A stretch of 35,016 nt of DNA from Clostridia bacterium (GTDB lineage: Bacteria; Bacillota; Clostridia; Christensenellales; Borkfalkiaceae): NCBI GenBank assembly GCA_017886895.1, contig JAGHJD010000008.1:1-35016 (forward strand). Direction: 5' to 3'. How positions within the stretch are numbered: position 1 is the stretch's first letter; each line of letters opens with the position of its first letter. Below are positions 3,567-26,620 of the stretch, in pieces. The notes under the pieces were generated by a model. The model was given only the letters and a program-made list of their open reading frames with translations. It had not been told where the DNA came from and searched no databases. The translations under genes and the position numbers were made by a program.

Positions 3567-4094
3567 ATCGGTGTTGCTTGGCTAACTGCATACAGCTTTC
3601 AACGCATTCAGCTCAGATCCCTCGGCTGCGCTCGGGATGACACAGAGATGATATTTGTATAGAGATCTTTCGCAAGGCTCGGGATGAGGGACATGCTCCT
3701 TGGCAAGCTGCTCGGGATGACAGGGACATGCTCCTTGGCAAGCTGCTCGGGATGACAGGGACATGCTCCTTGGCAAGCTGCTCGGAAAGACAGGGGGCGC
3801 GCCCCTTTCCTGCGCGGAATGACGGCGAGCACCCCTGCCTCCCCCCTAATACAAACAGGGGGAAGGTGGCGGCGGCAAAGCCGCCCGATGAATGGGAGGG
3901 AAGAAAAATACGATCCTCATCCGTCAGGCGGCAAAGGCGCCTGACACCTTCCCCTTTGGGAAAGGGGAAGGCAGGGGAAACGAAGCGGCGAGCTCACTCT
4001 TGCAAAGGGGGAGGCAAGTGCGATAACGGCGCGGGCGTTTCTTTCCCCTTATCCCCCTAAAAAGAAATGGCAAGCAGGAGACTGCACAAGCAAG
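3567..4094. repeat. Gene-free repeat-rich intergenic region
   Basis: No gene seen. The stretch has the imperfect 35-bp tandem repeat listed separately, more distant copies of the phrase CTCGGGATGACA, and hairpins. GTCAGGC pairs with GCCTGAC at 3923-3945, and CCTTCCCCTTT pairs with AAAGGGGAAGG at 3947-3971 around GGG. Such phrases are common as dispersed intergenic repeats in Clostridia draft genomes and give short false open frames in several readings. They may mark a family of miniature repeats scattered in this genome. Confidence 0.6.
3681..3783. repeat. Tandem repeat, 35-bp unit, three copies
   Basis: Copies at 3681-3713 (33 bp, lacking two bases), 3714-3748 and 3749-3783 are otherwise identical. 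A degenerate partial fourth starts at 3784. Each unit begins GGGATGACAGGGACATG and ends CAAGCTGCTC. There are no unique spacers between units, so it is a minisatellite-like array and not CRISPR. Confidence 0.85.
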
Positions 4095-4352: not shown

Positions 4353-7300
4353 TCACGCTCTGCGTACACTGACCTGCGTCTCCTCCGCAAGCGATGAATA
4401 ATTCATTACACCGTTATATGTATGAATATATTCGTAATTGAGTCGGGAACCGGAAGCGTTATAGAACGAACAACCGGAATCGAGCACGCTGTCTACGGAG
4501 ATACGCAACCCTGTATAGGTTCCCCAACTTCCGGTTGCCGTCATTGCACCGATCGCGCCACCGTCAGACCAATAATGCACCATACTCCCGCCTGCATAGC
4601 TACGATCGGCTTCCCCTCCTATAAACGTACCGCCAAAGATCTGAATGTTGGTGCCGGGATTGACTGCTATATACAAACCGGAACGCCCTTTCGTACCGCT
4701 GCTTTCGGGATCGCCCACCCCGCTGAAAACACCGCCGTAAATATTAAGTTTCGTTGTGCCTTCGCCGTAAAAGATGCCGTCGCTGCCGCCGCCCGATTTC
4801 GGGGAATTGCACCAATACGTTCCGTTATAGATCGTAACGGAAGAACCGCTGTTGCCGTCCGTTCCTTCCACCGTGATCGCCGCCGATTCGCCCGCAAGCT
4901 GTATCACTTCATTGTCTGCACTGCCTTCCGTGCCGAATGTTACCGTGGCATGGCTGTACACGGCAAACGCTGCCGTACCCGCAACGTTAAACGTACCGGC
5001 GGTGATTGTTGCCGTAGCCGATCGTTCCGCGCTGCCCATAACGAACGCGCCGCTGCCCGCATAGCGGCTGCCCGTTCCCGTCGTTGCCTGGTCGGTAAAG
5101 GTGCCTCCGTTCACGGCAAGCGTGCCGCCGTACAGTTTGAACGCGTATGACGCGGCGGGCCCCGCATTTGCCGCACTATCCGCAGTGCCCGGCGTATAGG
5201 CGTCCGCACCGATAAAGGTACCGCCCTCCACTGTCGCCGTTCCTTCCTGAACCAAAATGCCGTTCCCCATATTGGCGGTATATCTGCCGCCGTTGATCGT
5301 CAGCTTGCCGCCGACGACCTCCACCGCATGCCCGCCGCTTATATTTTTATGATAATGCCATGCATTTGTGCCGTCCGCTGTACCGTTGTTGATATTATAC
5401 CATGCGTCCGTATACCCGCTTCCCGTTGCAGAAATGGTAAGTTCTGCGGAAGCCTCCGCCCCGCCGTCCTTTTCGACGCCGATTTTCACAGAACCGCCGC
5501 TGACATACAGCCCGCCGCCGACGGAGTTGGTGATCGCCCCCTTTGTAATGGTGGTGACCTGCGTCTCCGCATCGCCCATAACGCGCACGGCATAGCTGCG
5601 CACGTTCAATTTATTGTAATTCCCGTCGTAATTGTTATTTACGCCCGTATGGGTGACGTTAAACACCGCATTGGTTGCGTCAAGCGAGCCGCTCTGCACG
5701 CGCACGCCGTCAAAGATGCCCGCGCCGCCCGCAACGGTATAACCCTCCCCCGCAATCGCCGACGTAATGTTGACGGTGCCGCTGAGCGTCGCTTTGCCGT
5801 TGATGTACATGGCGGTGCCGCGCGTCGTCGTAATGCTGAGCTGTTCGGCGGGCGTGTCGCCGCTGCCCGCCGCTTCGGTCGTGGGCGCATAGGTGAAACT
5901 GCCGCCGCCCGTGCCCGCCGTGCCCTCTGTAGACGAGCTGGTCGTCACGCCCAGCCCGTCGGATGCAACGGTCACATTGCCCGTTAGGCTGACGCTGCCG
6001 CCGACGGCGCTGATCGCCGTGGAGGAGAGAACGGGGTCGCTCGCCGCAGCCTTCATTTGCATGGTCACGGTGAGGGAGTCGGCGCTGCTTGCTGCCGTGT
6101 AGGTGATGCTGCTGTCCGCGCCGCTCGCGTACACGCAGCAGGAGTACGTCCCCTGCACCTCGATCGTGCAGGTGCCGTGCACTTCGACCTCGCCCGCAGA
6201 GCCGTCCGCGCTCGAGGCATAGACGCCGAAGTTGCCCGTCTGCGTGCCCGAATCCGCCGTATCGCTGCCAACGGCGATCATGCAATCAGTGAGGGTGACG
6301 GAGCCGCCGTCTGCGTACACACCGTAATTTCCGCTGCCCTCGCCGAACGAAAGCTCTGCGTCCGTAAGGGTGACGTCGCCGCCCTCTGCGTACACGCCGT
6401 AACTGTTGCTGCCGCTGAGGGTGAACGCCGCGCCCGCAAGGGAGACGGAACCGCCCTCTGCGTACACGCCGTAGACGGACGAGCCTTCCAGCGTAAAGGT
6501 GAGCGAAGAGGCGCCGCCTGTGATGCTGCTGTTCTCTCCCGTGATGCGGATCGCGGCACTGTCCGCGCCCGCAGACGCCGCCGTCTTTGTAAACGCGCCG
6601 CCCGTAACGAGCACGCGCCCGCCGCTCACCTGCACGGTGTCGCCGTCCTCCGAGCCGAAGGCGCCGTCCGCAATGCGCAGGTATTCGTCATCGCTGTTTT
6701 CGGCATAGTCGCAGTGGATGCACACGCCGCCCTCGATCGCCTCGAAGGTGCCGCTCTCCACGGACATGTACCCGCCCTCGGCGTACACGCCGTACGCCGT
6801 TTTTTCGCCGAAATTCGTGGTATACGAGCCGCCGCGCACGTACATGTTGCCCGAGAGCATCTCGACCGTCGCGTAGTGCGCGGACGCCGTCGCGCTCGCC
6901 TTGACGTCGTTGTACCCGTACACGGTGACGGTAAAGAGGTTCTCCTTCTCCGTATCGGGCAGCGCCTCCGCGTCCTCGTCGGAGATATAGGTATAGACGG
7001 GCGCGCCCGTCTCCGCATTCTCGGTGCGCTGCACTTTGTAGCTGTACCTGAAGTTTGCCGAGCCCTCCGCGGCGATCGTCGTCGTGGAAACGGAGTCGTC
7101 GTCCAGCACGTAATAGAGATAGGTATCGCCCTCTATTTTGCCGCCGTAGGCATCGGCGCCGAACGCGGGATCGGTATCGAAATACATGTTCCCGTTGACG
7201 AACCAATACTGCTGCGTTTCGCCCGCGGAATAGGTCGCCTCCTCCACATGCGGGGTGATGACGGGCATGTTTGCCGCGCTCCCCTCGTAGTTCTCCCCGC

Positions 7301-7904
7301 TCTCATCTTTCACATAGAGGGTGACTGCGGCGGTCGTCCCGTCGATCGTGCCGCCGCCGTTTTCGCGGTCGGCAGACCAGTGCCCGCCGCTCTCCTCCGC
7401 GTATTCGCTCTTTTTCGGGCCGCTGACGAAGGCGCCCGCGGACACGGTGAGCGTGCCGCCGCCGATGCGCAGCACGCTGCCGACGGGGTTGTAGAAGGAG
7501 CCGCTCTGCTCGACGGACGTATCGATAATGGTCAGGCGCACGCCGTTCTGAATATTCAGCATCGGCTCGCGGTTATTGCGCTGGATCTCGTGCCCGTTCA
7601 AATCGAGGATGAGATCTGTGCCGACATCCGTCACGCCCGACGTGATGATGAGCGGGTTATCCACGCCGTCCGCGATCTTGATATTGGAATACCCGTTCTC
7701 GATGGCGGCGATCAGCTCTTCCACGCTGTTCACTTCGACCTGCTCGGCGACGATATACTCCATTTCGCCGTCATAGATGTCCGACGAGGAGAGCACCTCC
7801 TTTTCATACCTGCCCTGCGTGAACAGCACGCCGAGCAGCGTCGAAAGGACAAGCAGGAGCAGAATGAATACGATCAGCCCGTACTTCGTTTTCAGCGACT
7901 TCAT
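4353..7904 (-). CDS. Large anchored beta-helix surface protein
   Basis: An 1183-aa exported protein, last gene of the SipW/TasA-like cassette. It has a short basic N-terminus, one hydrophobic segment (about 9-29), then the boundary GRY at 31-33, the same R-Y signature as in two other proteins of the cassette. The rest reads as a right-handed beta-helix. Short strands such as LTIIDTS and LTVSAGAF recur, and the phrase YGVYAEGG is repeated near residues 371, 478, 501 and 527, with many related G-G-x-(V/L)-x-(V/I)-x-G-G-x-F turns. The composition is rich in Gly, Ser, Thr and Ala with almost no Cys. No LPXTG or S-layer domain is visible, so the N-terminal segment either anchors it or is cleaved. 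The start overlaps the previous stop (ATGA at 7901-7904). It is probably an adhesin or matrix component; that role is inferred. Confidence 0.85.
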   Translation of the reverse strand: MKSLKTKYGLIVFILLLLVLSTLLGVLFTQGRYEKEVLSSSDIYDGEMEYIVAEQVEVNSVEELIAAIENGYSNIKIADGVDNPLIITSGVTDVGTDLILDLNGHEIQRNNREPMLNIQNGVRLTIIDTSVEQSGSFYNPVGSVLRIGGGTLTVSAGAFVSGPKKSEYAEESGGHWSADRENGGGTIDGTTAAVTLYVKDESGENYEGSAANMPVITPHVEEATYSAGETQQYWFVNGNMYFDTDPAFGADAYGGKIEGDTYLYYVLDDDSVSTTTIAAEGSANFRYSYKVQRTENAETGAPVYTYISDEDAEALPDTEKENLFTVTVYGYNDVKASATASAHYATVEMLSGNMYVRGGSYTTNFGEKTAYGVYAEGGYMSVESGTFEAIEGGVCIHCDYAENSDDEYLRIADGAFGSEDGDTVQVSGGRVLVTGGAFTKTAASAGADSAAIRITGENSSITGGASSLTFTLEGSSVYGVYAEGGSVSLAGAAFTLSGSNSYGVYAEGGDVTLTDAELSFGEGSGNYGVYADGGSVTLTDCMIAVGSDTADSGTQTGNFGVYASSADGSAGEVEVHGTCTIEVQGTYSCCVYASGADSSITYTAASSADSLTVTMQMKAAASDPVLSSTAISAVGGSVSLTGNVTVASDGLGVTTSSSTEGTAGTGGGSFTYAPTTEAAGSGDTPAEQLSITTTRGTAMYINGKATLSGTVNITSAIAGEGYTVAGGAGIFDGVRVQSGSLDATNAVFNVTHTGVNNNYDGNYNKLNVRSYAVRVMGDAETQVTTITKGAITNSVGGGLYVSGGSVKIGVEKDGGAEASAELTISATGSGYTDAWYNINNGTADGTNAWHYHKNISGGHAVEVVGGKLTINGGRYTANMGNGILVQEGTATVEGGTFIGADAYTPGTADSAANAGPAASYAFKLYGGTLAVNGGTFTDQATTGTGSRYAGSGAFVMGSAERSATATITAGTFNVAGTAAFAVYSHATVTFGTEGSADNEVIQLAGESAAITVEGTDGNSGSSVTIYNGTYWCNSPKSGGGSDGIFYGEGTTKLNIYGGVFSGVGDPESSGTKGRSGLYIAVNPGTNIQIFGGTFIGGEADRSYAGGSMVHYWSDGGAIGAMTATGSWGTYTGLRISVDSVLDSGCSFYNASGSRLNYEYIHTYNGVMNYSSLAEETQVSVRRA

Positions 7905-9475
7905 GCCGACCCCTCCCCCGCAGGCGCGCTCTCGGACGCCTGCGCGAACAGCACGCTGAGCACGGTGGAGTACCCCTTGCTCGTCGCAAGAGAGAGCGAA
8001 TATTTGCGCGTGCCTCCCGCCTGCTGTTCGGCATAGGTGTCGTAATAGGGGTCGTCGGACAGCCCGTCAAAGAAAATGTACCCGCTCTTCGGCTCCCCGT
8101 CCGCGCCCACGTTCACGCAGGTGCCGTACAACCCGTGTACGCCCGCAACGGAGGAGAACGCCGCGGAAGTTTCGGTGAATGCGCCGTTTTCGTAGGAATA
8201 GAAGGTCTCTATCGGATGGTCGACGGACGCGGAACCCGCCGCCTCGGAGACGGGCGCGACATGCTCGTAAAAGAGCGTTGCCCCGCCGTTTTCGTAGTCG
8301 TAGACCTTGTTGATGCGGACCGTCGTTTCGCCGCTCTCGGTAAGTACGCCGTCCGCGAGCCCGTAGACGGGCAGATCGCGCGTAAAATGATAGCCCGTGA
8401 CAGTCGCCCCGTTGAGGGTGTACGGCGCGGCCCCCGCAACGGGCTCTGCGAGCAGGCCGTCCCAGCTCGTCACGCCATCGCCGCCGACGCTGCCTGTACC
8501 TTCGGCGCCGTCCGTCCCCTCCGTGTTCCAGACGGAGTTGAAGTCTGTATCGTCGATCTGTTCGGTCACGGTGAGGAAGAGAACGAACTCCTTCTCCTCC
8601 GCCTGCCCCGCGGAAAACAGCGCTTCGGGCAGCGTCAGGTCGACGGTGTAGAAGGACATCTCTTTCTCGCAGTCGATATACAGCACGGGCGCCATGACGC
8701 CCGCCGTCCCGCTGCCGACCTCTTCGCCCTGCACTTCCGTGCGCACGAACCCCACGGAATAGGACGCCGTCCGCACCGCCGAGGTGATGCCGATGCCCGT
8801 GCCGTCTTCCGCCGCCGCGGTGATGCTGCCCGTGTGGCTGCCGTCCGCAGTCCCTGCAAAGCCGCCCGTGACGGTGAGCTGCTGTTCAATGTTTCCCGTG
8901 CCCGTCAGCCCGTCGGTGCGGTCGCTGTAATCTTCGGAAAGGGCGGTATTTACGGTGCGTTCGCCGCTTGCGAACGAGCCGCCCGCCTCGTACTTCCCGT
9001 CCGCGCCCACGCTCACTTCATAGATAAAATCGCGCAGCACGTACTGCGGCGTCACGACCGTGTAGCCGCCATCCTCTTCGACCTCTGCGACCTGCACGGC
9101 GAGCCCGCCCGCAAACTGCGCGGGCGCATAGAAGCGCAGCGTGCTCTGCAGGGCGACGTCGCTGATCCTGTCCGCGCCGCCCTCTTCGTCCGCAAGGTAG
9201 TTGCGCAGCGTAAAGCGCACCGTGCGCGCCGTGTTCGTCGCACTCAGCCCCTCTTCGCCCAGATCCAGCCAGTAATCGGAATTGGAAAAAATGAGCGAAG
9301 AGGCGTCCGAGATCTCGTACGAACAGAGAAAGCGGCTGAGCGGCGTGCTCACGCCGCCGCTGGTCGCCCCCGAATAGCGGGCAAGGCTGACGCCCGTCAG
9401 CAGGATGCCGACGATGACCAGATAGCTCAGATACCTGAGGATCGGGTATTTTTTAGTCCTTTTCTTCTTCTCCAT
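7901..9475 (-). CDS. Exported cassette protein with ARY signal boundary
   Basis: A 524-aa protein of unknown function. The N-terminus is Lys/Arg-rich (MEKKKRTKKY), followed by a membrane segment at about 12-31 and ARYSG at 32-36. The exterior part is acidic and rich in Gly, Ser and Thr, with alternating beta-type segments (for example VRFTLRNYL, FVLFLTVTEQ, TVRINKVYDY) but no domain I can name. It may be a fibre subunit or an accessory like the anchoring proteins of TasA systems. The ATG at 9475 has GGAG six bases upstream and lies inside the end of the second signal peptidase gene (23-bp overlap). Its stop overlaps the next start by 4 bp. These overlaps indicate tight co-translation with the peptidase and the beta-helix protein. 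Confidence 0.8.
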   Translation of the reverse strand: MEKKKRTKKYPILRYLSYLVIVGILLTGVSLARYSGATSGGVSTPLSRFLCSYEISDASSLIFSNSDYWLDLGEEGLSATNTARTVRFTLRNYLADEEGGADRISDVALQSTLRFYAPAQFAGGLAVQVAEVEEDGGYTVVTPQYVLRDFIYEVSVGADGKYEAGGSFASGERTVNTALSEDYSDRTDGLTGTGNIEQQLTVTGGFAGTADGSHTGSITAAAEDGTGIGITSAVRTASYSVGFVRTEVQGEEVGSGTAGVMAPVLYIDCEKEMSFYTVDLTLPEALFSAGQAEEKEFVLFLTVTEQIDDTDFNSVWNTEGTDGAEGTGSVGGDGVTSWDGLLAEPVAGAAPYTLNGATVTGYHFTRDLPVYGLADGVLTESGETTVRINKVYDYENGGATLFYEHVAPVSEAAGSASVDHPIETFYSYENGAFTETSAAFSSVAGVHGLYGTCVNVGADGEPKSGYIFFDGLSDDPYYDTYAEQQAGGTRKYSLSLATSKGYSTVLSVLFAQASESAPAGEGSA

Positions 9476-10283
9476 CCACTGCTCCGCGCTCGTCTGTTCC
9501 GCGCTCGTCTGCCCCGCGCTCGTCTGTTCCGCGCTCGTCTGCCCCGCGCTCTCCTGTCCCGTATTTATCTGCCCCGCGTTCGTTTGTTCCGTCTGTATCG
9601 GTTTCGCGCTCTGCCGCGCGCTCTTCTGCCGCGGGACCGCCTGCGACGGGCTCCTCCGCCTCTGCCGCGGCGTCCGCCGCGTCCCCCTGCGTTTTCCCCG
9701 TGTTCTCGTTTTCCGATGCTTGTTCCGTGTTTTCCGCGCCCGCCTTCGCCGTTTCAGCCGCCTCTCTGCGCTTGCCGAGAGCGCGCCCGACGAGCGCCGT
9801 CGCCACCCAGACCGCCGCAGCCGCCGCGATAATTACAAGTATGCCGAGCGGCGTCTGCACAAAGGCGATGAACGAACCGAACCCGTGCAGGACGGCGGTC
9901 ACCTTTCCCACGACCGCGTCCTGCGGGACGGTGAACGAATCCTGCCAATTGTTCGCATCCCCTTTGGTCGTATAGCCGCCCTCCGAGACCAGCACGATGC
10001 GGTGCGTGACGTATTCGCCGCGTTCGGAGTCGTAAAAAGTGATGACGTCGCCGACGGCGTATTCCTCTTCGGCGTGCAGGACGACGAAGTCCCCTGCGGC
10101 GATCTCCGGCTCCATGCTGCCCGTTTCGACGACGGCAAAGCCGTAGCCGAACAGGGTGGGGATGCCCTCCCCGAAGGCGTACCGCGCCACGAGCGTATAG
10201 ATATTGTACAGGAGCAGCAGCCCCGCAAGCACCAGCACGAGCACGCGCAGCGCCGTCCCGACCGCACGGAAAGCCTTCTTCAT
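9453..10283 (-). CDS. SipW-like (ER-type) signal peptidase I, second copy
   Basis: A 276-aa membrane signal peptidase. A transmembrane segment at about 11-30 is followed by the catalytic TGSMEP, with Ser56 directly before Met57. Then comes VTHRIV with His94, the residue that replaces Lys in ER-type/SipW enzymes, and KGDANN with Asp109. A second transmembrane segment spans about 144-168. The tail (about 178-276) is charged, low complexity and ends in tandem repeats. SipW enzymes cleave TasA-like proteins. ATG at 10283 is chosen because it gives a standard short cytosolic end; SD is only GGTGG. A GTG at 10373, overlapping the upstream stop (GTGA), would add 30 residues and cannot be excluded. 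It lies between the 504-aa and 524-aa genes. Confidence 0.88.
   Translation of the reverse strand: MKKAFRAVGTALRVLVLVLAGLLLLYNIYTLVARYAFGEGIPTLFGYGFAVVETGSMEPEIAAGDFVVLHAEEEYAVGDVITFYDSERGEYVTHRIVLVSEGGYTTKGDANNWQDSFTVPQDAVVGKVTAVLHGFGSFIAFVQTPLGILVIIAAAAAVWVATALVGRALGKRREAAETAKAGAENTEQASENENTGKTQGDAADAAAEAEEPVAGGPAAEERAAERETDTDGTNERGADKYGTGERGADERGTDERGADERGTDERGAVDGEEEKD
9481..9590. repeat. 30-bp (2 x 15) tandem repeats in peptidase tail
   Basis: Period 30 at 9491-9520, 9521-9550, 9551-9580 (degenerate) and into 9590. Each unit encodes two alternating five-residue blocks of the type ADERG and TDERG in the cytosolic tail of the second signal peptidase. It is a probable site of copy-number change; a 15-bp sub-repeat keeps the frame whatever the copy number. 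Confidence 0.85.
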
Positions 10284-10369
10284 AGACACCACCGAACAGA
10301 CAGGCGCGGAAGTTTCACCCGCCCTGCCGCGGCGCGGCGTTTTTGCGTATGCAGGCGCCGCATGCGCGT

Positions 10370-11884
10370 TCACGCCTCCGCGACGACGGACGCTTCGAAC
10401 CCGATGTGCAGCACATACGTGGCGCCCGCCTCGCCTGCGGCGGTATCGGCGGCGTCGTTATGCCTCCAATACCACTGCAATTCGAACATCGTGCCGGAAT
10501 TTGCCTCCAGCGTCAGCCCCGAAACGTTCAGCTCTTCCGCGGTGACGTACCCGCCCGTACCCGAAACGTACGCGCCGTCGCGCACGAGGCGGTAGACAAG
10601 CTCTATCCCGTGTTCGTTCTCCTCCGTAAAGGTGAAGGAAAACGTCACGGTGTCGTCGTTCGCGTTTTCAAAAATGAAGCGGTAGGAACCGCTCATGCCG
10701 GGCGCGATGACCGAATCGCCGAACGTCTCGTTGACGAAGACGGGCAGATCTTCCTGCTCCTCCCAGTGCACGCCCTCCTCGTCCGTCAGAAAGATCGTGG
10801 GCGCGTACGGCTCCGCCGTCTGCGGGATCGCCAGGGCGCCGAGCAAAACGGCGAGCACGGCGATGACCGCGAGGCAGAGAAAGAGGATAAACAGCGGGAT
10901 AAACCGCCCGCGGCGGATGGTCGCGATATGTTCGTGCAGCGCCGTGAGCAGGTTGCCGTTGCCGTCGAGGTAGCCGAGCGCCGCCTCCTCCCCTTCGGGA
11001 TAGTACAAGACGCCCTCGCCCTCTTCACGGAGCACGCCCTGCACGGCGTCCTCTTCGTCGTACCATGTGCCGCGGCGCAGCCGCCCGACCCTCTGCCCGA
11101 ACCTGTCGTACACCGCCGCGCGGCGGGGCAGGCGCGCCTTCACCGCCTCGGGCGGGAGCACGCACGGCAGGACATCCGCCGCGGACGCCGCTGCGGGCGC
11201 CGCGTTTTCGGCGGCGGTCTCCGCGTCGGGCAGGACGGGCACGGGCACATATACCGTGCGCCGCCGCACCTTCGCACTGCCGAACGCGCCCGCCTGGTCA
11301 TGCGGGACGTACGAGGGGTCGGGCTCCAGCCCGTTCTCCGCCATCACCTGCCCGATCAGCTCGAGCGCGTAGCGCACCTGCCTGTCGGAAGTCAGGCGGA
11401 TGAGCATCGGGCAGCGCGCGTAGCGCGCCTTTGCGGACATATCCCTGTGATGGTACCTGCCCGCGCTGTACGCCTTCGGGTCGAGCGCCAGAAACAGCCG
11501 CAGCGTCGAACCCGAAACGCGCAGCATCGCGAGCGTCTTTCTCCCGCAGGAAAAGACTTCGCCCGTCTTGGAGACGCGCGCCTGCACGCCCTTGCCTGTC
11601 CGCGGAAAGCGGTAGCGGAGCAGTTCGTTCTTCACGGCGTCGTACCGCCGACCCGTCACATACCCCGCTCCGTTCATGCGCTGGGCAAAGGAGGACGCCG
11701 CGCGGGCGGAGGGCACGCCGAAACGGCCCGCTGCGCTTTCGCCCGGGCCTGCAGATCTTGCGGCGCTCTCCGCGCCGTCCGCCGTGTATTCGGAAACACG
11801 CTCCTCTGCCGGAGCGTTTTCCTGTATATTCCCCTCCTGCGCGCCGCGCAGCTCCTTTTCCCTGTCCTGAGAGGTATCCCGCAT
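10370..11884 (-). CDS. One-pass protein: cytosolic domain plus TasA-like outer domain
   Basis: A 504-aa protein. Residues 1-65 are low complexity. Residues about 66-185 resemble a domain met in clostridial proteins, with LDPKAYSAGRYHHRDMS (134-150) and a helix RYALELIGQVM; I know it only as of unknown function. A Pro/Ala linker and a small beta region (about 255-325) follow. The single membrane segment is at 328-352. The exterior part (about 385-504) has features of TasA/camelysin-type beta sandwiches: APGMSGSYRFIFEN, a YRLVRDG strand, then LQWYWRHNDAADTAAG before a final strand. So it may sense or anchor the fibre from inside. The start at 11884 has GGAG about 14 bases upstream, which is loose. 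It is preceded by a 488-bp structured gap and followed directly by the second peptidase. Confidence 0.78.
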   Translation of the reverse strand: MRDTSQDREKELRGAQEGNIQENAPAEERVSEYTADGAESAARSAGPGESAAGRFGVPSARAASSFAQRMNGAGYVTGRRYDAVKNELLRYRFPRTGKGVQARVSKTGEVFSCGRKTLAMLRVSGSTLRLFLALDPKAYSAGRYHHRDMSAKARYARCPMLIRLTSDRQVRYALELIGQVMAENGLEPDPSYVPHDQAGAFGSAKVRRRTVYVPVPVLPDAETAAENAAPAAASAADVLPCVLPPEAVKARLPRRAAVYDRFGQRVGRLRRGTWYDEEDAVQGVLREEGEGVLYYPEGEEAALGYLDGNGNLLTALHEHIATIRRGRFIPLFILFLCLAVIAVLAVLLGALAIPQTAEPYAPTIFLTDEEGVHWEEQEDLPVFVNETFGDSVIAPGMSGSYRFIFENANDDTVTFSFTFTEENEHGIELVYRLVRDGAYVSGTGGYVTAEELNVSGLTLEANSGTMFELQWYWRHNDAADTAAGEAGATYVLHIGFEASVVAEA

Positions 11885-12372
11885 AATTGACGTACGTTCT
11901 CCGTTTTTTTGGATAACTTACTTCAAATAAAGTACCCCCCCCCGAGCAACATACCTCCATGTTTATGAATGCGGCACAGCCGCCGTGCCCGTTGCTGCAG
12001 CGGACGGCGCGCCCGTGAAAACGGCATGCATCCTTCTCGGCAGGGTCCCCTGCCGTTTGCCTCGGCGCCCTGCGCTTTGCAGGACGTGCGCGGGGAGGCG
12101 GGTATGGAAATGCACCGTTTCACAGCAATCTGCGGCTTACGCAGGGTTTTGCTCCCCTATGTCTGCGTTTCCGCGAAAATACGGAAGAATGCCCTTTGTT
12201 CCGATACCTGCCGCGCACAGCCGACGCGCACGGCATCCCTGCGGCGCAACTGCGCCGCCCCTTCCCCGCTGCAACGCTGCCACATCCTCAACGGAACGCC
12301 TGCGCGGAAAAAACGGGTCTGCCCGCGCGCCCGCAGGCGGGCGCGCGGCTGCCCTGTCCTTATGCTTTTACT
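11885..12372 (-). promoter_or_regulatory. 488-bp structured gap inside the cassette
   Basis: No convincing gene. Read on the minus strand, it begins with the hairpins and T-run after the TasA-like gene. It then has strong stems such as GCGGCGCA/TGCGCCGC (near 12243-12260), CGGCAGGG/CCCTGCCG (12037-12054) and CCTGC/GCAGG (near 12068-12082). A run of nine G (plus-strand C, 11935-11943) lies close to the next start. GGAGGTATG at about 11950-11958 looks like a ribosome site but opens only a very short frame. I find no good sigma-A promoter. A long 5' region with regulatory folding is likely, of unknown type. Confidence 0.45.
12308..12348 (-). terminator. Attenuator-like terminator after the TasA-like gene
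   Basis: On the minus strand, CCGCGCGCCC and GGGCGCGCGG form a perfect 10-bp stem, nine bases before TTTTTT. An alternative small stem, CGGG-CAGA-CCCG, touches the T-run directly. The two exclude each other. Partial termination here would lower expression of the downstream genes relative to the putative subunit. Confidence 0.45.
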
Positions 12373-13056
12373 TTATGCAGTCGGCAATTCGGATGCCTGC
12401 ACCGCCGAATACGTCACGTCGAACCCGACAGACTCCACGTTCTCGCCTGCCCAAGTATCGATCGCGTCCGCGACTGCCTGCCCCTCTGTGTCCGCAGACG
12501 TCCAGATAACTTCCACAAAGATGACGAGCACGCCGCCGTCTGCCGCAACCGTCTGGGTGATCGTGCCGTCCTCATCCGTCGCGGTCGCGGTGTCGGCCGC
12601 AGCCGTCGTCGCATAGCCGAGCTTGACGCTGAACAGCCCTGCGACCTGCTCCGGGCTTGCGTTGTTCGTGAGAGCATCGCTGCTGATACCGGCACCGTAG
12701 CTCACGCTGCTGCGGAGCGCGACCTCGATATCGCCGACGGTGACCGTGACATCTGCCGCCACGTCGCCGCTGTTGGTGATGGTGATCGCCTTCACCGAAC
12801 CCGTGCTGTGCGTGCGCTCTTCGCCGTCGGTTTCAGACGCCCACGCGTCTTTGGCGGGCGAAAGCTGACTGAACGTGATCGCGCTCACGTCGTCGCCCTC
12901 AAAAGAAACATTCCACTCCGCCACGCTGACGGACGCCGTGCTCTCGCCGCCGCTCGTATAACGGGCGAACGTGCTGCCGAGGAAGCAGAAGCTCACTGCG
13001 GTGAGTACGACGAGCGCAAGGATCAGTTTGGATACGATCCTCTTCTTCTTGACCAT
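12373..13056 (-). CDS. TasA-like secreted protein (SipW-dependent type)
   Basis: A 227-aa exported protein and the best candidate for the structural subunit of the cassette. The N-terminus MVKKKRIVSK precedes a hydrophobic segment (about 9-29) ending in GSTFARYTSG, with ARY at 31-33. Next comes ASVSVAEWNVSFEG, typical of mature TasA/camelysin-like starts. The rest is a beta-rich Ser/Thr/Ala/Val domain with ITITNSGDVAADVTVTVGDIEV, a strand pattern usual in this family. No Cys occurs after the signal region. ATG at 13056 has GGAGGAAAG five bases upstream; an in-frame upstream extension lacks support. It lies directly after a SipW-like peptidase, as tasA lies beside sipW in Bacillus. Fibre formation is inferred from family and context. 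Confidence 0.85.
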   Translation of the reverse strand: MVKKKRIVSKLILALVVLTAVSFCFLGSTFARYTSGGESTASVSVAEWNVSFEGDDVSAITFSQLSPAKDAWASETDGEERTHSTGSVKAITITNSGDVAADVTVTVGDIEVALRSSVSYGAGISSDALTNNASPEQVAGLFSVKLGYATTAAADTATATDEDGTITQTVAADGGVLVIFVEVIWTSADTEGQAVADAIDTWAGENVESVGFDVTYSAVQASELPTA

Positions 13057-13322
13057 TCTTTCCTCCACTGAATATGAAAAAACTGTATTTGCACACTGCG
13101 CGCGTATGTGGCGCCGCGCGCCGGGTACCGAAAGGAAACGCCCCCTTCTCCGTTTGCCTCTCCTATGCTGCCGCGGGGTCTCTGCCGCCGCGGCGTACCG
13201 CGGCGCATTCAAATCGATCTATGTCTTTAAAATACAGCAAAAACAGCATAATGAAGTGAACCAAGCAGTACGTGTACTTCCAAAGGCGCATATCAAAAAG
13301 CTGTTTGTTGTTTTGTTCGCGA

Positions 13323-14096
13323 TCATTCCGCGTCGGAAGAGCTGTTTTCGTTCTCCTTCGGCGGCGGCTCCGTGCCTGCGGTTCCGCCCTCCGCTTCGGG
13401 GCGTTCCGCGCCCTCTGCGGGCGCCTGCCCCTCTTTTTCCGACAGCAGTTCGCGCAGGCGGCGGATCTCCTCGTCCTTCTCCGCTTCGGACTGCGCCCCC
13501 GCCGCGGCAGCCGCCTTCGCGCGGCGGTTGGTCAGCGTGATGCGCGTCACGTCATAGACGATATACAGAAGGACGGGCACGCCGATCACGACCAGGATGC
13601 CGACGGGCGTCTGCAAAAACATGGCGAAATCGCCCAAGCCCGCAACGCTGCCCGTGCACAGCCCGATCACGTTTTCAACGGGGATCGCGCCGTCGGGGAT
13701 ATTGTTCGTCGGCGCGTCGCCCTGGGTCACGACCGTCTCGATGCTGCCCGCAGCCGAGCGGTTGACCTGTATGATGCGGTGGGTGACGAACGAGCCTTCC
13801 GTCCTGTAGGTCACGATGTCCCCCGCTTCCAGTTCCTGTTTCTCTTCCTCGCCGAGCAGACGCACGAAAATGAGCGCGCCCTCGGCAAAGCTGTCCTCAT
13901 AGCCGCCGTCCATGGAGCCGGACGTGACCGCCATCGGCGCAATGCCGAACACGTCGGGCGGCAGGTCCTCGTTCGTGCTGCCCTTGATGATCAGCGTAAG
14001 ATTGATCGCAAACAGCGGGATGAGGATGACCGCGAGCACCGCCAGGATGACGATGCTGACAATATCCCCCTTTGTCCTCTTCCTCTTCTCTCCCAT
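13323..14096 (-). CDS. SipW-like (ER-type) signal peptidase I, first copy
   Basis: A 257-aa membrane peptidase and the first gene of the cassette. The first transmembrane segment is at about 12-37. Catalytic TSGSMDGG has Ser61 before Met62. The usual Pro after SM is replaced by Asp, unlike the second copy. THRIIQ supplies His106 in place of Lys, and QGDAPTNN supplies Asp127. A second membrane segment (about 158-182) is followed by a charged, Glu/Pro/Ala-rich tail to 257. ATG at 14096 has AGGGG nine bases upstream. It is transcribed from the perfect-consensus promoter at 14168-14196. Two such peptidases in one cluster suggest a division of labour among the exported proteins, or one acting as a sorting-type enzyme. 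Confidence 0.9.
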   Translation of the reverse strand: MGEKRKRTKGDIVSIVILAVLAVILIPLFAINLTLIIKGSTNEDLPPDVFGIAPMAVTSGSMDGGYEDSFAEGALIFVRLLGEEEKQELEAGDIVTYRTEGSFVTHRIIQVNRSAAGSIETVVTQGDAPTNNIPDGAIPVENVIGLCTGSVAGLGDFAMFLQTPVGILVVIGVPVLLYIVYDVTRITLTNRRAKAAAAAGAQSEAEKDEEIRRLRELLSEKEGQAPAEGAERPEAEGGTAGTEPPPKENENSSSDAE

Positions 14097-14167
14097 CCGA
14101 ACGCGCCCCTGCTCCGTTTCGCACCGAATCGAAAGATACTCCCCTGCGGGAATATTTCGGTAGGAAT

Positions 14168-14196
14168 ATTATAGTTAGAATTAACTATAATGTCAA
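14168..14196 (-). promoter_or_regulatory. Perfect-consensus sigma-A promoter of the cassette
   Basis: Minus strand TTGACA (14191-14196), 17-bp spacer, TATAAT (14168-14173). Both hexamers match the consensus fully. An inverted repeat fills the spacer and enters the -10, so strong transcription is probably held back by a repressor. Confidence 0.92.
14169..14190. promoter_or_regulatory. Candidate operator, 9-bp inverted repeat
   Basis: TTATAGTTA (14169-14177), GAAT, TAACTATAA (14182-14190): perfect 9-bp arms. It covers the spacer and most of the -10 of the cassette promoter and touches the -35 of the plus-strand candidate. A site of this size fits a dimeric XRE/Cro-type regulator, such as the one encoded next to it. 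Confidence 0.65.
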
Positions 14197-14209
14197 CTCA
14201 TTTTATACT
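14181..14209 (+). promoter_or_regulatory. Candidate promoter of the XRE regulator
   Basis: TTAACT (14181-14186), 17-bp spacer, TATACT (14204-14209). A second -10, TATAAT at 14233-14238, lies further on, but its -35 is poor. The -35 overlaps the inverted repeat, which would allow autoregulation. Confidence 0.45.
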
Positions 14210-14396
14210 ATATGGACACTTGTTTTTTATACTATAATATTTATAGCATGGCGGGATAATGCAAATTTCAGAAAGAAAGAGGCTCGTACAGGGTGCCGTC
14301 ACGGCAAACAAGTACGGCCCGAACCGAATCGATCGGTCTGCCCCGTACCCACCTGCCGACTGCCTGCGCCTCCTCTTTTTCCGCCGAGGACGGGAC

Positions 14397-14723
14397 ATGC
14401 ATATGGACATTATAGCAAAACTGAACAAACTGCGCCTGGAGCGGAACATGAGCGTATACCGCCTTGCAGAGCTTTCCGGGCTGAGCCAATCCACGCTCGC
14501 AAACACCTTTTCCCGCGGGACGATCCCCTCCCTTCGCAACCTCGAAGCCCTCTGCGATACGCTGGGCGTGACGCTCGCGCAATTTTTCACCGAGGATGAA
14601 ACGCTCGTTCGGCTCACCCCCGAAGAGGCGGACTTCTTCGCCGCATACAAAAAACTTCCGCCCGCCGTAAAACGCTCGGTCAACGAGATCGTCGCTTCCG
14701 TAGCAAACACGGCGAACAACTGA
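14397..14723 (+). CDS. XRE-family HTH transcriptional regulator
   Basis: A 108-aa DNA-binding protein. The HTH_3 domain fills about residues 6-60: LNKLRLERNMSVYRLAELSG, then LSQSTLANTFSRG as the recognition helix region, then IPSLRNLEALCDTLGVTLAQFF. A short C-terminal helix region (LTPEEADFFAAYKKLP to the end) is common in small clostridial XRE proteins and may form dimers. No sensor domain is present. ATG at 14397 is preferred because GAGGA lies six bases upstream; the second ATG at 14403 is also possible. It is divergent from the SipW/TasA-like cassette, as SinR-type regulators can be near matrix genes. The operator-like repeats between them suggest it controls both. Confidence 0.88.
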   Translation: MHMDIIAKLNKLRLERNMSVYRLAELSGLSQSTLANTFSRGTIPSLRNLEALCDTLGVTLAQFFTEDETLVRLTPEEADFFAAYKKLPPAVKRSVNEIVASVANTANN

Positions 14724-14880
14724 CGCGCGCGGGATAAGAAGGCGGCGAGGGCGGCGGACGGGCAAACAGCGCGCCGCCCCGCACATTTCTATTTTATGCC
14801 CCGAGTGCAGGTTACGGCACTTTTCACACATAAAAATTATCCCCCCCTTTGCACCCGCAGCCGAACGGTTGCGGGAGTGC

Positions 14881-14923
14881 AAAAAAACGCAGCCGCGCTT
14901 TCCGAACGGAAAGCGCGGCTGCG
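14881..14923 (-). terminator. Terminator of the dagK-to-lemA operon
   Basis: CGCAGCCGCGCTTTCC (14888-14903) pairs perfectly over 16 bp with GGAAAGCGCGGCTGCG (14908-14923) around a 4-base loop. On the minus strand seven T follow. The plus side has only CCGCTTTT, so it may also weakly end the XRE transcript. Confidence 0.9.
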
Positions 14924-14956
14924 CCGCTTTTATGGATCTCGCTTCTTGCCCGCGGC

Positions 14957-15625
14957 TCAGAAGAACACGCCGCGCGCCTGCTCTTTGACCTCCGCGCTCG
15001 CGGTGAACGGGATGCGCGTGGTGTAGCCCCTGCGCGCCGCAACGATCATCTTGGTCGGCCAGGCGTAGATGTCCCTGTTCCAGACGCCGACGGTATCGTT
15101 GTACAGCTCGCGGGCGGCGGTGATCTCCTTCTGGAGATAGGCGTTCTGCTGCATCGCGTCCGCAATCTCGGCGTGCGCTTTGAGATCGGGGTAGTTCTCG
15201 AACGCGAGGTTGATGCTCCTGCCCACCGAGTCGATCTGCTGCGCGACCTCGTTGCGCAGCCCGTCGTTCGCGGGGTTCGCGCCCGAACGGTAGGCGGCGA
15301 TCTGCGTCATCGTCGTCTTGTCGAGATCGATCGCCTTATCGAGAAGGCGCGCGCAGTTCTGCAAAATGACGACGCGCTGTTCGAGATAGTTGTCGATCTG
15401 CGAAGCGTCATGCTGCAGTTTCTGCTGGAGCTGCGAGAGATAGTTCCCCGCCTTGATCTTCATGATCAGGAAGATCAGCCCGGGGATGATCAACGGGATC
15501 CAAAGGAGCACCTCAAAGATCCTCGACCCGACCCCGACCTTGATGGGGAGCTGTTTCTCGATGACGGCAACGTCGCGGCCCTGCTGGTTTACGGGACCGG
15601 TCATTTCGTCAAGTTCGTTTGCCAT
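14957..15625 (-). CDS. LemA family protein
   Basis: A 222-aa membrane protein of the LemA family, whose molecular role is not established. An N-terminal cytosolic stretch of about 35 residues is followed by one membrane segment (about 36-57). The helical LemA core runs from GNYLSQLQQKL through IDNYLEQRVVILQNCARLL to AYLQKEITAARELYNDTVGVWN and a final aromatic patch (IYAWPTKMI). It is a little longer at the N-terminus than many LemA proteins. ATG at 15625 has GGAGG eight bases upstream. Only 15 bp separate it from the 726-aa gene before it. This pairing suggests a joint role at the envelope. It is the last gene before the strong terminator. Confidence 0.9.
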   Translation of the reverse strand: MANELDEMTGPVNQQGRDVAVIEKQLPIKVGVGSRIFEVLLWIPLIIPGLIFLIMKIKAGNYLSQLQQKLQHDASQIDNYLEQRVVILQNCARLLDKAIDLDKTTMTQIAAYRSGANPANDGLRNEVAQQIDSVGRSINLAFENYPDLKAHAEIADAMQQNAYLQKEITAARELYNDTVGVWNRDIYAWPTKMIVAARRGYTTRIPFTASAEVKEQARGVFF

Positions 15626-23321: not shown

Positions 23322-23627
23322 ATGATGAAACTTTGCAAAATCGCGGGCGATGCGCTCCCCGACGCGGGCGCGTTCGCCTTTTCGGACAGGACGGTGCAGG
23401 GCGCGCGCCTGGGCAGGGCGGGCGACTCCCTGTATATTTTCTCCCCGCGCAGGTTCAAACTGTTTGCAGAGGGGCGGGACGAGGTGGTCATCGTGCGCGG
23501 CGAGGGGCACATCAAATGGGCGCGCGGCGAGCTGCCCTTCCGCGCGGGCGAGCATATCCTCGCCGAGGAATGCGGCGAATACGAAATAAACGGAGACTGC
23601 GAATTTGCGGTCCTCCGCAACAGATAA
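23322..23627 (+). CDS. Hypothetical 101-aa protein, possibly cupin-like
   Basis: A small cytosolic protein with no membrane segment. It is a run of short beta strands: YIFSPRRFKLFA, DEVVIVRGEGHIKW and LPFRAGEHILAEECGEYEI, ending in FAVLRN. The pattern of strand, glycine turn, E-H-x-x and a final strand recalls a minimal cupin or beta-barrel fold, but the metal-binding His set is not complete, so this is a guess. Two ATG codons stand in tandem at 23322; AAGGCGG lies upstream. A good promoter is present. The next gene begins 20 bp on and is probably in the same transcript. Confidence 0.65.
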   Translation: MMKLCKIAGDALPDAGAFAFSDRTVQGARLGRAGDSLYIFSPRRFKLFAEGRDEVVIVRGEGHIKWARGELPFRAGEHILAEECGEYEINGDCEFAVLRNR

Positions 23628-23647
23628 AAAAGAGGCTTTTTTTTCAA

Positions 23648-26620
23648 ATGGTCAGATCGAATACAAGCGTGGGCGGGAAGATCCTGCTCATCCTCATCAC
23701 AATGATCCTCACGCTCGCGCTGCTTGTCGGCGTGGTCTTTATCGTGTACAAAAAGGCGAGCGTGCGCTCCATTGCGGGGCTGTTCGGCGCGGACGACCTC
23801 ATCAGCGAATCGTACGACGGCACGATCGAGGACCTCGTCTCCCTGCTTGCGGGCGCCGTTTCGGACGGGTCGCTCTCCATGAACGACCTCATCGAGATCT
23901 CCCCGCTCGTCGGAGAAAAGCTCGACGCCGTGCTCGACGACATCGAGGAGACGGGGCTGATCAGCGTCGACCGCGACACGCTGTACGCAACGCCCGTCAA
24001 CAGCCTCTCCGCCTCGCTCGGCAGCCTCATCGCCGTCACCGCGACGCTCGACGACCTCTCCTCCACGCTCGGGTTCACCCTGCCCGACCTGCCCCTCATC
24101 ACGGGCAGCGAGGAAGAGCCGCTGCAGCTCTATTCGCAGGCGAACCTCACCGATTCCGGAGAGATCGGCAGCGAATTTCTCTTCGGCGGAGACGCGTACT
24201 CCTTCTATACCCGCACGACAAGCTATGCGAGCACCTATACGGACGGGGAAGAGACGGCAAACATCGTGACGTGGAACCAATATTCGCTCTACACCCTCGC
24301 GGGCGTATCCGAGGGAGAAAACGGGACGCTGCGCTACGGGAACTATACGCTGTATCTTTGCACGGCGGGCGAGGACGAGGCAGAGCCCTCCTATGCCGCG
24401 CTCACGCCCGAGAGCGGCGCCGTCTACTCCTATACGGCGCCCGCAGACCCCGCCGAGGGCCCCGTCACCTTCGCGCTCGGCTCAGACGAGAGCGTGTGCG
24501 TGCGCACGGGTGAGGCGGAATATACCGCCGTCTCCGAACTGTTTACAGAGGACTGGACGGATGAGAACAGCGTCGTCTATTCGCCCGAAGTCGCCGCCGC
24601 GTACAAATACACGCCGCTCTTTTACGCCGATGCGGAGAGCGGGAACTACGTCACCGCGAACACATACGACTCCGCGTCCGGGAAGTACGTGACGGACGAA
24701 ACTGCGGGCGGGTTCGCGCTGGTCCTGCCGAACGCCGCAGACGAGAGCGGCTATTACAAGCAGACGACGGAGCTGTACTGCCGCGTCTACACCTATTCGG
24801 AGGCGATGACGGCGGACGAGGCGAACGCGCTCGTTTCGGAGGCGATCGCGGCGGGAGTAGGCGCGCCCGCGATCTACACCTGCACGAACGGCATCGCGGC
24901 TCTCCCCGCGACCTATGCGATGACCGCGCTCTCCTCCGCGCTGGATACGGACAACATGACGCTGGATACGCTGTGCGACTACCTCGGCATGGAATTCGGC
25001 ATACAGGAGGACGGAGAGGGCTCTGCCCTGCTCGAGACCGTGCGGCATATCCCGCTCGGATACCTGAACGACAACATGCAGGCGGAACTGCAGGGCATAG
25101 CATTGGGCGACGTGATCGTGCTCGATGCAGATTCGCCCCGCATGCTGCTCACGCTCGCCTACGGCGAGGAGGGCGTCGGCTATGAGATCACCGAAGAGGG
25201 GGAACTGGTCGTCTACGAGAAAAAGACGGTCGCCGACCTCACCTCTTCGCTGAACACGCTGCGCATCGGCGACCTCGTGGACGTGACCGACGGCAGCGCC
25301 GCCATTTTACAGGCGATACAGGACTGGACGCTCGCGGACTTTTCGGACAGTACGAAAGTCGGTTCGCTCACCCTCGGCGACGTGCTGACGATAGACGGGG
25401 ACTCCCCCGCCATTTTACAGGCGCTCAAAGACGTGACGCTGGACGGCATGAGCGGCGCGGTGGACAGCCTGACGCTGGACGAGGTACTCGGCGACAGCAT
25501 CAACAACAGCGAACTTCTGTCCATGCTGCGCGGCTCTACGCTGCAGACGCTCGCGGAAGACATCGCTTCCCTCTCCGTGCAGAGCATGTTCGCGGACAGC
25601 GTGTACACGTATTACGACACGGGGTACATCGTTTCCTCCGTTACGGACGCCGCCGCGCTGTACGGCGCGGAAAACCTGTACGTTTGGGACGGGGCGGTCT
25701 ATACCCTTTACTCTGCAGACGGCGGCTATGACGGCAGCGAAACGCTGTACAGCCCCTATCGGCTGCTTTCGGCGGGAGAGCGTTCGGACTACGCGGGCGT
25801 GCCGCTGTACTATTACGACGAAACAAGCGGGCAGATGCAGCTTGCGACCGCCGTCACGGGCTGGTCGATGACCGCGGAACAGTTCGCGGAATACGGCGGC
25901 TACACCCTGTACTATGCGGAGAACGGCGGCTACACGCAGGTCACGGGCTCCGTCACGGCGGACACCGTGTTCACGGCAAGCGCCGTCTGGTATTGGGATC
26001 CCGCGACGGAGAAAATGCAGAGCGTCCGTCTCACGGCGTCGGGGTACGGCGTCACCGTGACGGCAGACAATTACTTCACCCGCCCTGCCAAAGCGGGCGA
26101 TCCCGCACAGTACAACGGCACCGATTACTACACGGAGAGCAATCTCTACTACTACGACGTCGAAAAGGAGAGCTGGCAGCGCGTCACGCTCACGGGCGTG
26201 TGGCTGAACACGAGCGGCAGCGAAGTCGCCGTCACGGACGAGACGGACACAACCGGTCTCACCCGCTATTATAAAATCACCGACGGGACCGTGCCCGCAG
26301 GCGCGGCGCTGTACACCTACGGCGAAGTGATCGGCGTATGGAAGTACCTCGTGCGCGACGGGGACGGGTTCGAGCAGACCTACACCCTCGAGGACGTGGG
26401 CAGCATGGTCTCAAACATCAACCACAACATCAACACCGCCACCCTGCGCGAGCTGGTCGGGGACGGCATCATCACCATCAACACATCGGACGGGCAGACG
26501 CAGGAAGACATCCTGAACACAAAGTACAACCAAGACGGCGACATGCTCGGCGACTGCACGGTGGGGCAGCTCATCTCCCTCATCGCGGGGCACCTTTCCT
26601 CGCCCGGAACGGGCGGCTGA
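23648..26620 (+). CDS. Large membrane-anchored repeat protein, unknown function
   Basis: A 990-aa protein. After a short N-terminus one strong membrane segment (about 10-34, KILLILITMILTLALL) anchors a large outer part. Most of it is acidic and Ser/Thr/Tyr-rich. Three to four repeats of the type (I/L)-x-(L/I)-G-D-(V/L)-x-x-(V/I)-D-x-D-S-P-x-x-L start near residues 484, 538, 572 and 605, the last two about 33 residues apart. A Tyr-rich part (about 675-875) repeats short blocks such as LYYYDETSG, LYYAENGG, WYWDPATE and LYYYDVEKE. No catalytic motif or wall-anchor signal is seen. ATG at 23648 has AGAGG 12 bases upstream, across eight T, a long spacing. It ends at a strong terminator. Confidence 0.82.
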   Translation: MVRSNTSVGGKILLILITMILTLALLVGVVFIVYKKASVRSIAGLFGADDLISESYDGTIEDLVSLLAGAVSDGSLSMNDLIEISPLVGEKLDAVLDDIEETGLISVDRDTLYATPVNSLSASLGSLIAVTATLDDLSSTLGFTLPDLPLITGSEEEPLQLYSQANLTDSGEIGSEFLFGGDAYSFYTRTTSYASTYTDGEETANIVTWNQYSLYTLAGVSEGENGTLRYGNYTLYLCTAGEDEAEPSYAALTPESGAVYSYTAPADPAEGPVTFALGSDESVCVRTGEAEYTAVSELFTEDWTDENSVVYSPEVAAAYKYTPLFYADAESGNYVTANTYDSASGKYVTDETAGGFALVLPNAADESGYYKQTTELYCRVYTYSEAMTADEANALVSEAIAAGVGAPAIYTCTNGIAALPATYAMTALSSALDTDNMTLDTLCDYLGMEFGIQEDGEGSALLETVRHIPLGYLNDNMQAELQGIALGDVIVLDADSPRMLLTLAYGEEGVGYEITEEGELVVYEKKTVADLTSSLNTLRIGDLVDVTDGSAAILQAIQDWTLADFSDSTKVGSLTLGDVLTIDGDSPAILQALKDVTLDGMSGAVDSLTLDEVLGDSINNSELLSMLRGSTLQTLAEDIASLSVQSMFADSVYTYYDTGYIVSSVTDAAALYGAENLYVWDGAVYTLYSADGGYDGSETLYSPYRLLSAGERSDYAGVPLYYYDETSGQMQLATAVTGWSMTAEQFAEYGGYTLYYAENGGYTQVTGSVTADTVFTASAVWYWDPATEKMQSVRLTASGYGVTVTADNYFTRPAKAGDPAQYNGTDYYTESNLYYYDVEKESWQRVTLTGVWLNTSGSEVAVTDETDTTGLTRYYKITDGTVPAGAALYTYGEVIGVWKYLVRDGDGFEQTYTLEDVGSMVSNINHNINTATLRELVGDGIITINTSDGQTQEDILNTKYNQDGDMLGDCTVGQLISLIAGHLSSPGTGG

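Follow-up and report, generated by a model that had tools for sequence, protein, structure and literature searches.

The window, a stretch of 35,016 nucleotides from a Borkfalkiaceae genome (1.63 Mb, 81% complete), carries a six-gene cassette that is probably a self-contained operon for a surface fibre of the SipW/TasA type. This assignment draws on a conserved gene order, the catalytic residues of two signal peptidases from separate clades, a signal private to the exported proteins, an operator-like repeat and a beta-helix fold. A SipW/TasA-like surface assembly had been suggested by a first-pass annotation of the sequence; that reading holds for the gene order, the peptidases and the beta-helix protein, and its interpretation is supported in part. 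The sequence of the TasA-like protein does not support membership of the camelysin family.

Organization and conservation of the cassette

All six cassette genes lie on the minus strand, in the transcription order SipW1, TasA-like, P504, SipW2, P524 and Helix, and a gene for an XRE-family regulator (14397..14723, plus strand) diverges from them, as the first-pass annotation had described. The regulator is, however, not of the 154 aa then assigned; translation from 14397 or 14403 gives a protein of ∼108 aa, these starts, like those of SipW2 (10283, the Met of MKKAF) and the TasA-like protein (13056), being our choice of the likely ones. Overlaps occur at P504/SipW2 (4 bases), SipW2/P524 (23 bases) and P524/Helix (4 bases), while 488 bases separate the TasA-like gene from P504. 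The exported proteins are strongly acidic in their mature form, and none of the six cassette proteins contains an LPxTG motif; the three exported proteins also display neither a sorting signal of the form LP.T[GANS] nor a hydrophobic stretch at the very C-terminus.

The expected recurrence of this neighbourhood in relatives was confirmed. All six families were present in 16 of 31 distinct loci, always in this order and on a single strand; the 16 comprise the window, L024 and loci from 14 numbered genomes, which span seven genera of three families (f1, f19 and f32 by group codes). Members aligned in full, from loci of this complete kind, are 33–65% identical to the window proteins. The remaining loci are cut by contig ends, represent a broken copy (G130, L041/L078, where stops interrupt P524 and Helix is split, the pieces being read separately and unmended) or are variant arrangements, such as SipW1-TasA-two small proteins-SipW2-P524-Helix in L050 and P524-Helix-TasA-P504-SipW2 in L073 and L075. 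L052 has all six genes in order and lies outside the 16, its P524 being under the threshold, and the repeat loci L023, L025, L026 and L078 were removed before most counts. The P504 outer-domain profile matched 14 of 297 genomes of the order, the P524 profile matched two of 391 genomes drawn from the class (the source genome and one over the signal part only), and a search of 72,556 plasmid records (E 0.001) found no relative of P524.

In the P524 tree, loci from other families nest inside f1, and grouping the non-f1 loci together was rejected (p-AU 4.6e-5) in an AU test that omitted the long branch L048 and in which the tested group was named after a quick tree had been seen. The SipW tree displays the same pattern. 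Because other-family loci nest inside f1 in both trees, the cassette has probably moved between families as a block, although an old duplication with losses may also account for the trees. The mirror correlation between P524 and Helix (r = 0.93) was the highest of 15 pairs; those of the TasA-like protein with SipW1, P524 and Helix were no better than permutations.

Two ER-type signal peptidases

SipW1 (13323..14096, minus strand; 257 aa) has two hydrophobic stretches and a charged C-terminal tail, and SipW2 (9453..10283, minus strand) comprises 276 aa from its likely start, in an open reading frame (ORF) that opens at 10373. Both proteins pass TIGR02228, the archaeal/ER-type signal peptidase model (70.3 and 82.9 bits; cut-off 51.85), and Ser61, His106 and Asp127 (SipW1 numbering) are invariant in 30/30 aligned cassette peptidases, in agreement with the earlier description of two ER-type enzymes in which His replaces Lys. 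SipW1 and SipW2 are predicted Ser-His signal peptidases. By their scores against the Bacillus SipW equivalog NF046067 (66.9 and 78.9 bits; cut-off 190, not reached) both are SipW-like enzymes but not members of that equivalog. The two form separate clades in a tree of 43 rows that included two of five intended outgroup rows (support 99/93 and 95/82), and the pair thus looks old, with both members kept. No further ER-type peptidase over the cut-off was found in the source genome as sequenced (81% complete), which encodes one P-type signal peptidase on another contig.

A signal private to the exported proteins

The TasA-like protein (12373..13056, minus strand; 227 aa), P524 (7901..9475, minus strand) and Helix (4353..7904, minus strand; 1183 aa) have SipW-type signals with cleavage expected at ...STFA/RYTSGG, ...SLA/RYSGAT and ...FTQG/RYEKE, respectively. 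Directly after the membrane stretch the motif [AGS]-[RK]-[YF] was present in all TasA-like (18/18), P524 (21/21) and Helix (25/25) sequences, these 64 being the ones in which a stretch was found; five P524 or Helix ORFs, which are fragments or over-long reads, had none near the start. The same motif occurred in one of 63 other N-terminally anchored ORFs of these loci, a control set of at least 100 aa per frame that was chosen by length and may include false genes, and this single example lies in a variant SipW cluster (L072). Cleavage before the Arg or Lys would place an aromatic residue at P2′. A study of B. subtilis TasA links an aromatic P2′ to poor cleavage by the P-type peptidase LepB, a site with which SipW copes, and reports an influence of further residues between P3 and P4′ (PMC10269814).

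At E 0.001 a profile of the signal matched only the three cassette genes in the source genome (E 2e-16 to 1e-12), the next rows (0.018 and 0.23) being partial. A further 47 matches, each at a cassette gene judged by position, came from 16 other genomes with the cassette, three from each of 15 genomes and two from G028; the G010 cassette is divided between two contigs. As the profile was built partly from the same genomes, these matches show that the signal type is private to the cassette clients, not that other kinds of SipW client are absent.

The TasA-like protein, P504, P524 and Helix

The name 'TasA-like' reflects a weak fold match of the structure model and the signal, not family membership. 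The TasA/camelysin profile PF12389 matched neither the window protein nor 14 family members at E 1, and nothing in the source genome. Profile-profile comparison with the camelysins, using 20 of 30 loci, selected by inspection because their frame and signal were clean, gave a probability of 94% with the signal peptide and 3% once it was removed (reversed-profile controls, 0.4 and 1.0%), and a family link by sequence was therefore rejected. The TasA-like label draws on the SipW-type signal, with an aromatic P2′ at the predicted cleavage site in 18/18 proteins, and on the weak fold match, donor-strand pilins being among the matches listed. The mature N-terminus of the model is extended and of low confidence (residues 29–46). 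The TapA profile TIGR04087 matched 2 of 14 TasA-like relatives weakly (best E 0.0011) and did not match the window protein. Pfam, NCBIfam and PDB sequence profiles gave nothing useful for the TasA-like protein, P504, P524 or Helix.

P504 (10370..11884, minus strand; 504 aa) is the one-pass protein that had been described, with a cytosolic part, a single hydrophobic membrane stretch (residues 323–358) and an outer domain of ∼150 aa from residue 353 that contains a C-terminal W..ND..DT.AGE motif. It had no NCBIfam match, and comparison of the P524 profile with its outer domain gave a probability of 3.5%; P524 itself belongs to no known family. Helix, which had been called a giant beta-helix protein, forms a right-handed parallel beta-helix in a structure model of residues 45–640. 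It had no Pfam or PDB sequence profile match, and its GVYA-type motifs start at residues 478, 502 and 527, 24–25 residues apart. Autocorrelation gave no repeat period better than shuffles, and the beta-helix claim therefore rests on the model. Fold matches for the TasA-like and Helix models are the best rows of ranked lists, and the absence of a family from them does not count against it.

Regulatory features

The XRE protein passes both HTH_3 (41.4 bits, cut-off 23) and HTH_26 (42.4 bits, cut-off 22). The SipW1 promoter (14168..14196, minus strand), TTGACA-17-TATAAT, agrees with the consensus at 12/12 positions and is the only site to match in full among the six promoter-like ones counted over 11.5 kb, a length in which shuffled sequences give 3.1. 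The −10 box and spacer lie within a perfect 24-bp inverted repeat, ATTATAGTTA-GAAT-TAACTATAAT (14168..14191). The pattern TATAG-N10-CTATA occurs at the same promoter offset in 4/4 loci with an XRE protein of >150 bits beside SipW1 (the window, L035, L042 and L044), a count that is not a blind test since the pattern was set after the promoters had been seen. It is missing from 15 other SipW1 upstream regions, including that of L040, where the XRE match reaches only 32 bits, and four of its five matches in 513,041 bases are at the four SipW1 promoters. The repeat appears tied to the XRE gene and is predicted to be the XRE operator.

A hairpin region 3′ of the TasA-like stop (12263..12372, minus strand) includes a T-run and the word TGTGG (12284–12280) and may act as an attenuator that separates the major subunit from the later genes. 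The 110 bases following this stop fold more stably than shuffles in 14/18 loci (z < −1.5, median −3.3), the z of the window being only −1.47, and a T-run terminator is present in 4/18 TasA-like/P504 gaps, including that of the window. The TGTGG segments of relatives aligned poorly, and against Rfam nothing in the window reached the gathering score, with two chance-level matches in the TasA–P504 gap. Attenuation is suggested here because in C. perfringens a terminator after bsaA results in two messages, one short and the other long through read-through (PMC7395162).

Proposed assembly and alternative readings

We propose that XRE, bound to the palindrome in the SipW1 promoter, would repress the operon until released by a cue. 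Relief would yield SipW1 and much TasA-like protein, with the other genes expressed by read-through; the TasA-like protein may be in excess because the hairpin after its gene limits that read-through. SipW1 and SipW2 would be reserved for three Sec substrates, the TasA-like protein, P524 and Helix, whose aromatic P2′ may hinder their processing by the housekeeping P-type peptidase. Cleavage by SipW1 or SipW2 would free an extended N-terminal strand for joining; B. subtilis TasA and TapA join through such a freed strand (PMC9674648, PMC10151520). The TasA-like protein would then polymerize by donor-strand exchange to form a shaft, with the TasA-like outer domain of membrane-held P504 as its base or assembly site, P524 as the joint that links Helix to the shaft, and Helix as a displayed adhesin or glycan-binding part. 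A more specific model, which we hold to be doubtful, is a polarized fibre in which P504 serves as the base, able to accept a strand but not to donate one, Helix as the end, which only donates, and the TasA-like protein, perhaps with P524, as shaft and joint, which do both. The order of assembly would be set by which protein has a free strand or groove, and the two peptidases, by freeing the shaft and end strands separately, would time it.

It is unlikely that the cassette instead displays an enzyme, with Helix a polysaccharide lyase, epimerase or glycosidase that the TasA-like protein and P524 only hold on the cell, in a device for glycan foraging or matrix remodelling. The two best Z matches of the Helix model are Vag8 and pertactin, which to our knowledge are not enzymes; 27 of the 55 invariant Helix columns are Gly and only three are acidic (E63, E167 and D260), and among 17 Helix members no match to a Pfam enzyme family passed, the rows being only weak and chance-like. 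The TasA-like protein might also form no free fibres and, with P524 and Helix, build a coat, anchored through P504, on the cell surface or in association with the spore. Such a coat would be consistent with the acidity of the mature exported proteins, the lack of LPxTG in all six proteins and the first description of TasA as spore-coat associated (PMC9674648), but we judge it improbable, as the extended, low-confidence mature N-terminus and the donor-strand pilin matches point to end-to-end polymers. SipW-type enzymes over the cut-off are present in 68/151 genomes of the family and P524 matches in 19/151, as might be expected if a secretion pair lay by chance beside three exported proteins; recurrence of the set contradicts this, and the fixed order over three families, the overlapping genes and the private shared signal make such a coincidence scarcely credible.

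Comparison with known systems

The cassette probably works like systems of the SipW/TasA kind; its TasA-like protein does not qualify as a member of the camelysin family. Known Bacillus SipW/TasA systems have one peptidase and short fibre proteins, and SinR is an XRE-type repressor. Searches of the open-licence PMC literature brought up no description of P504, P524 and a beta-helix client together with two SipW clades. The tapA-sipW-tasA operon of B. subtilis resembles the cassette in its ER-type peptidase beside a TasA-type client, its repressor control (SinR) and an accessory protein that donates a strand or serves as an anchor (PMC9674648, PMC10151520, PMC10269814), as well as in the aromatic P2′ of the client (PMC10269814). 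The cassette differs in its two peptidases, membrane-tethered P504, neighbouring regulator gene and two extra exported clients, one an 1183-aa beta-helix protein, and has no TapA match; the first-pass annotation had rightly set two peptidases and a giant beta-helix protein against the one-sipW operon of Bacillus.

The sipW-bsaABCRSD operon of C. perfringens is likewise SipW-first, with a major protein that forms polymers and transcription that reads through a terminator behind the gene for this subunit, but it has one peptidase and a two-component system where the cassette has two peptidases and an XRE gene (PMC7395162). In B. cereus, sipW-tasA, capP and calY make up a sortase-independent system in which SipW has several clients and a helper aids assembly, but one SipW processes all three, the helper is a DUF4047 protein and the available passages mention no beta-helix protein (PMC13082335). 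The relation to archaeal bundling pili (7ueg) is remote. Chaperone-usher pili with a tip adhesin are similar only in how they work, through an Ig-type pilin, an exchanged strand and a large end protein, whereas the six cassette genes include no chaperone or usher and encode signal peptidases instead. The cassette thus bears on how a donor-strand fibre made without chaperone or usher obtains a defined base and end. Apparently transferable, it also offers a natural experiment on what leads bacteria to retain an ER-type peptidase that serves few clients, and it points to a surface structure to seek in a mostly uncultured group.

Candidate regulatory elements of the cassette

The stretch between the TasA-like gene and the gene for the one-pass membrane protein P504 contains the word TGTGG (12284-12280, minus strand). 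This word is present in 14 of the 18 TasA-P504 gaps from the window and its relatives, where it occurs 17 times compared with an expected 2.2, and at several loci a stable hairpin forms with the word inside its loop or adjoining it. A search of Rfam with the window's gap returned nothing above chance level. The combination of TGTGG and hairpin may represent a conserved RNA element.

Other words are repeated in the region of the SipW1 promoter and the XRE regulator gene. The start of the XRE gene carries GACATTATAG (14406-14415), a copy of the -35/operator half of the promoter of the signal peptidase gene SipW1 (14185-14194), and TTTTATACTATA is present twice, at 14201 and 14225. The copies of both words are possible sites of autoregulation.

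Variation and decay of the cassette

P504 (gene 10370-11884) has a cytosolic N-terminal domain, spanning residues about 70-215, that bears a YHH(R/K)D motif. The domain is found in some relatives and is missing from others, and at L042, one of the related loci, a weak, separate relative adjoins the cassette (14466-15152).

In G130 (loci L041 and L078), a genome from the same genus as that of the window, the cassette is decayed, with stops within the exported protein P524 and Helix in two pieces. Locus L028 is on a contig assigned to the MAG of an uncultured Victivallales; at positions 1-108 this contig encodes a terminal 36 residues identical to residues 59-94 of SipW2, the second signal peptidase; the 10 kb past this fragment contain no match to other cassette proteins. 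The contig is probably chimeric or misbinned.

Features outside the cassette

A large, exported-looking ORF (about 23500-26620, plus strand), inside a 1095-aa frame (23333-26620), displays one hydrophobic stretch at its start. Short intergenic repeats occupy 3608-3832, where the translation reads CHPEQLAKEHVPVIPSSL...; in clostridial genomes repeats of this kind frequently appear as false ORFs.
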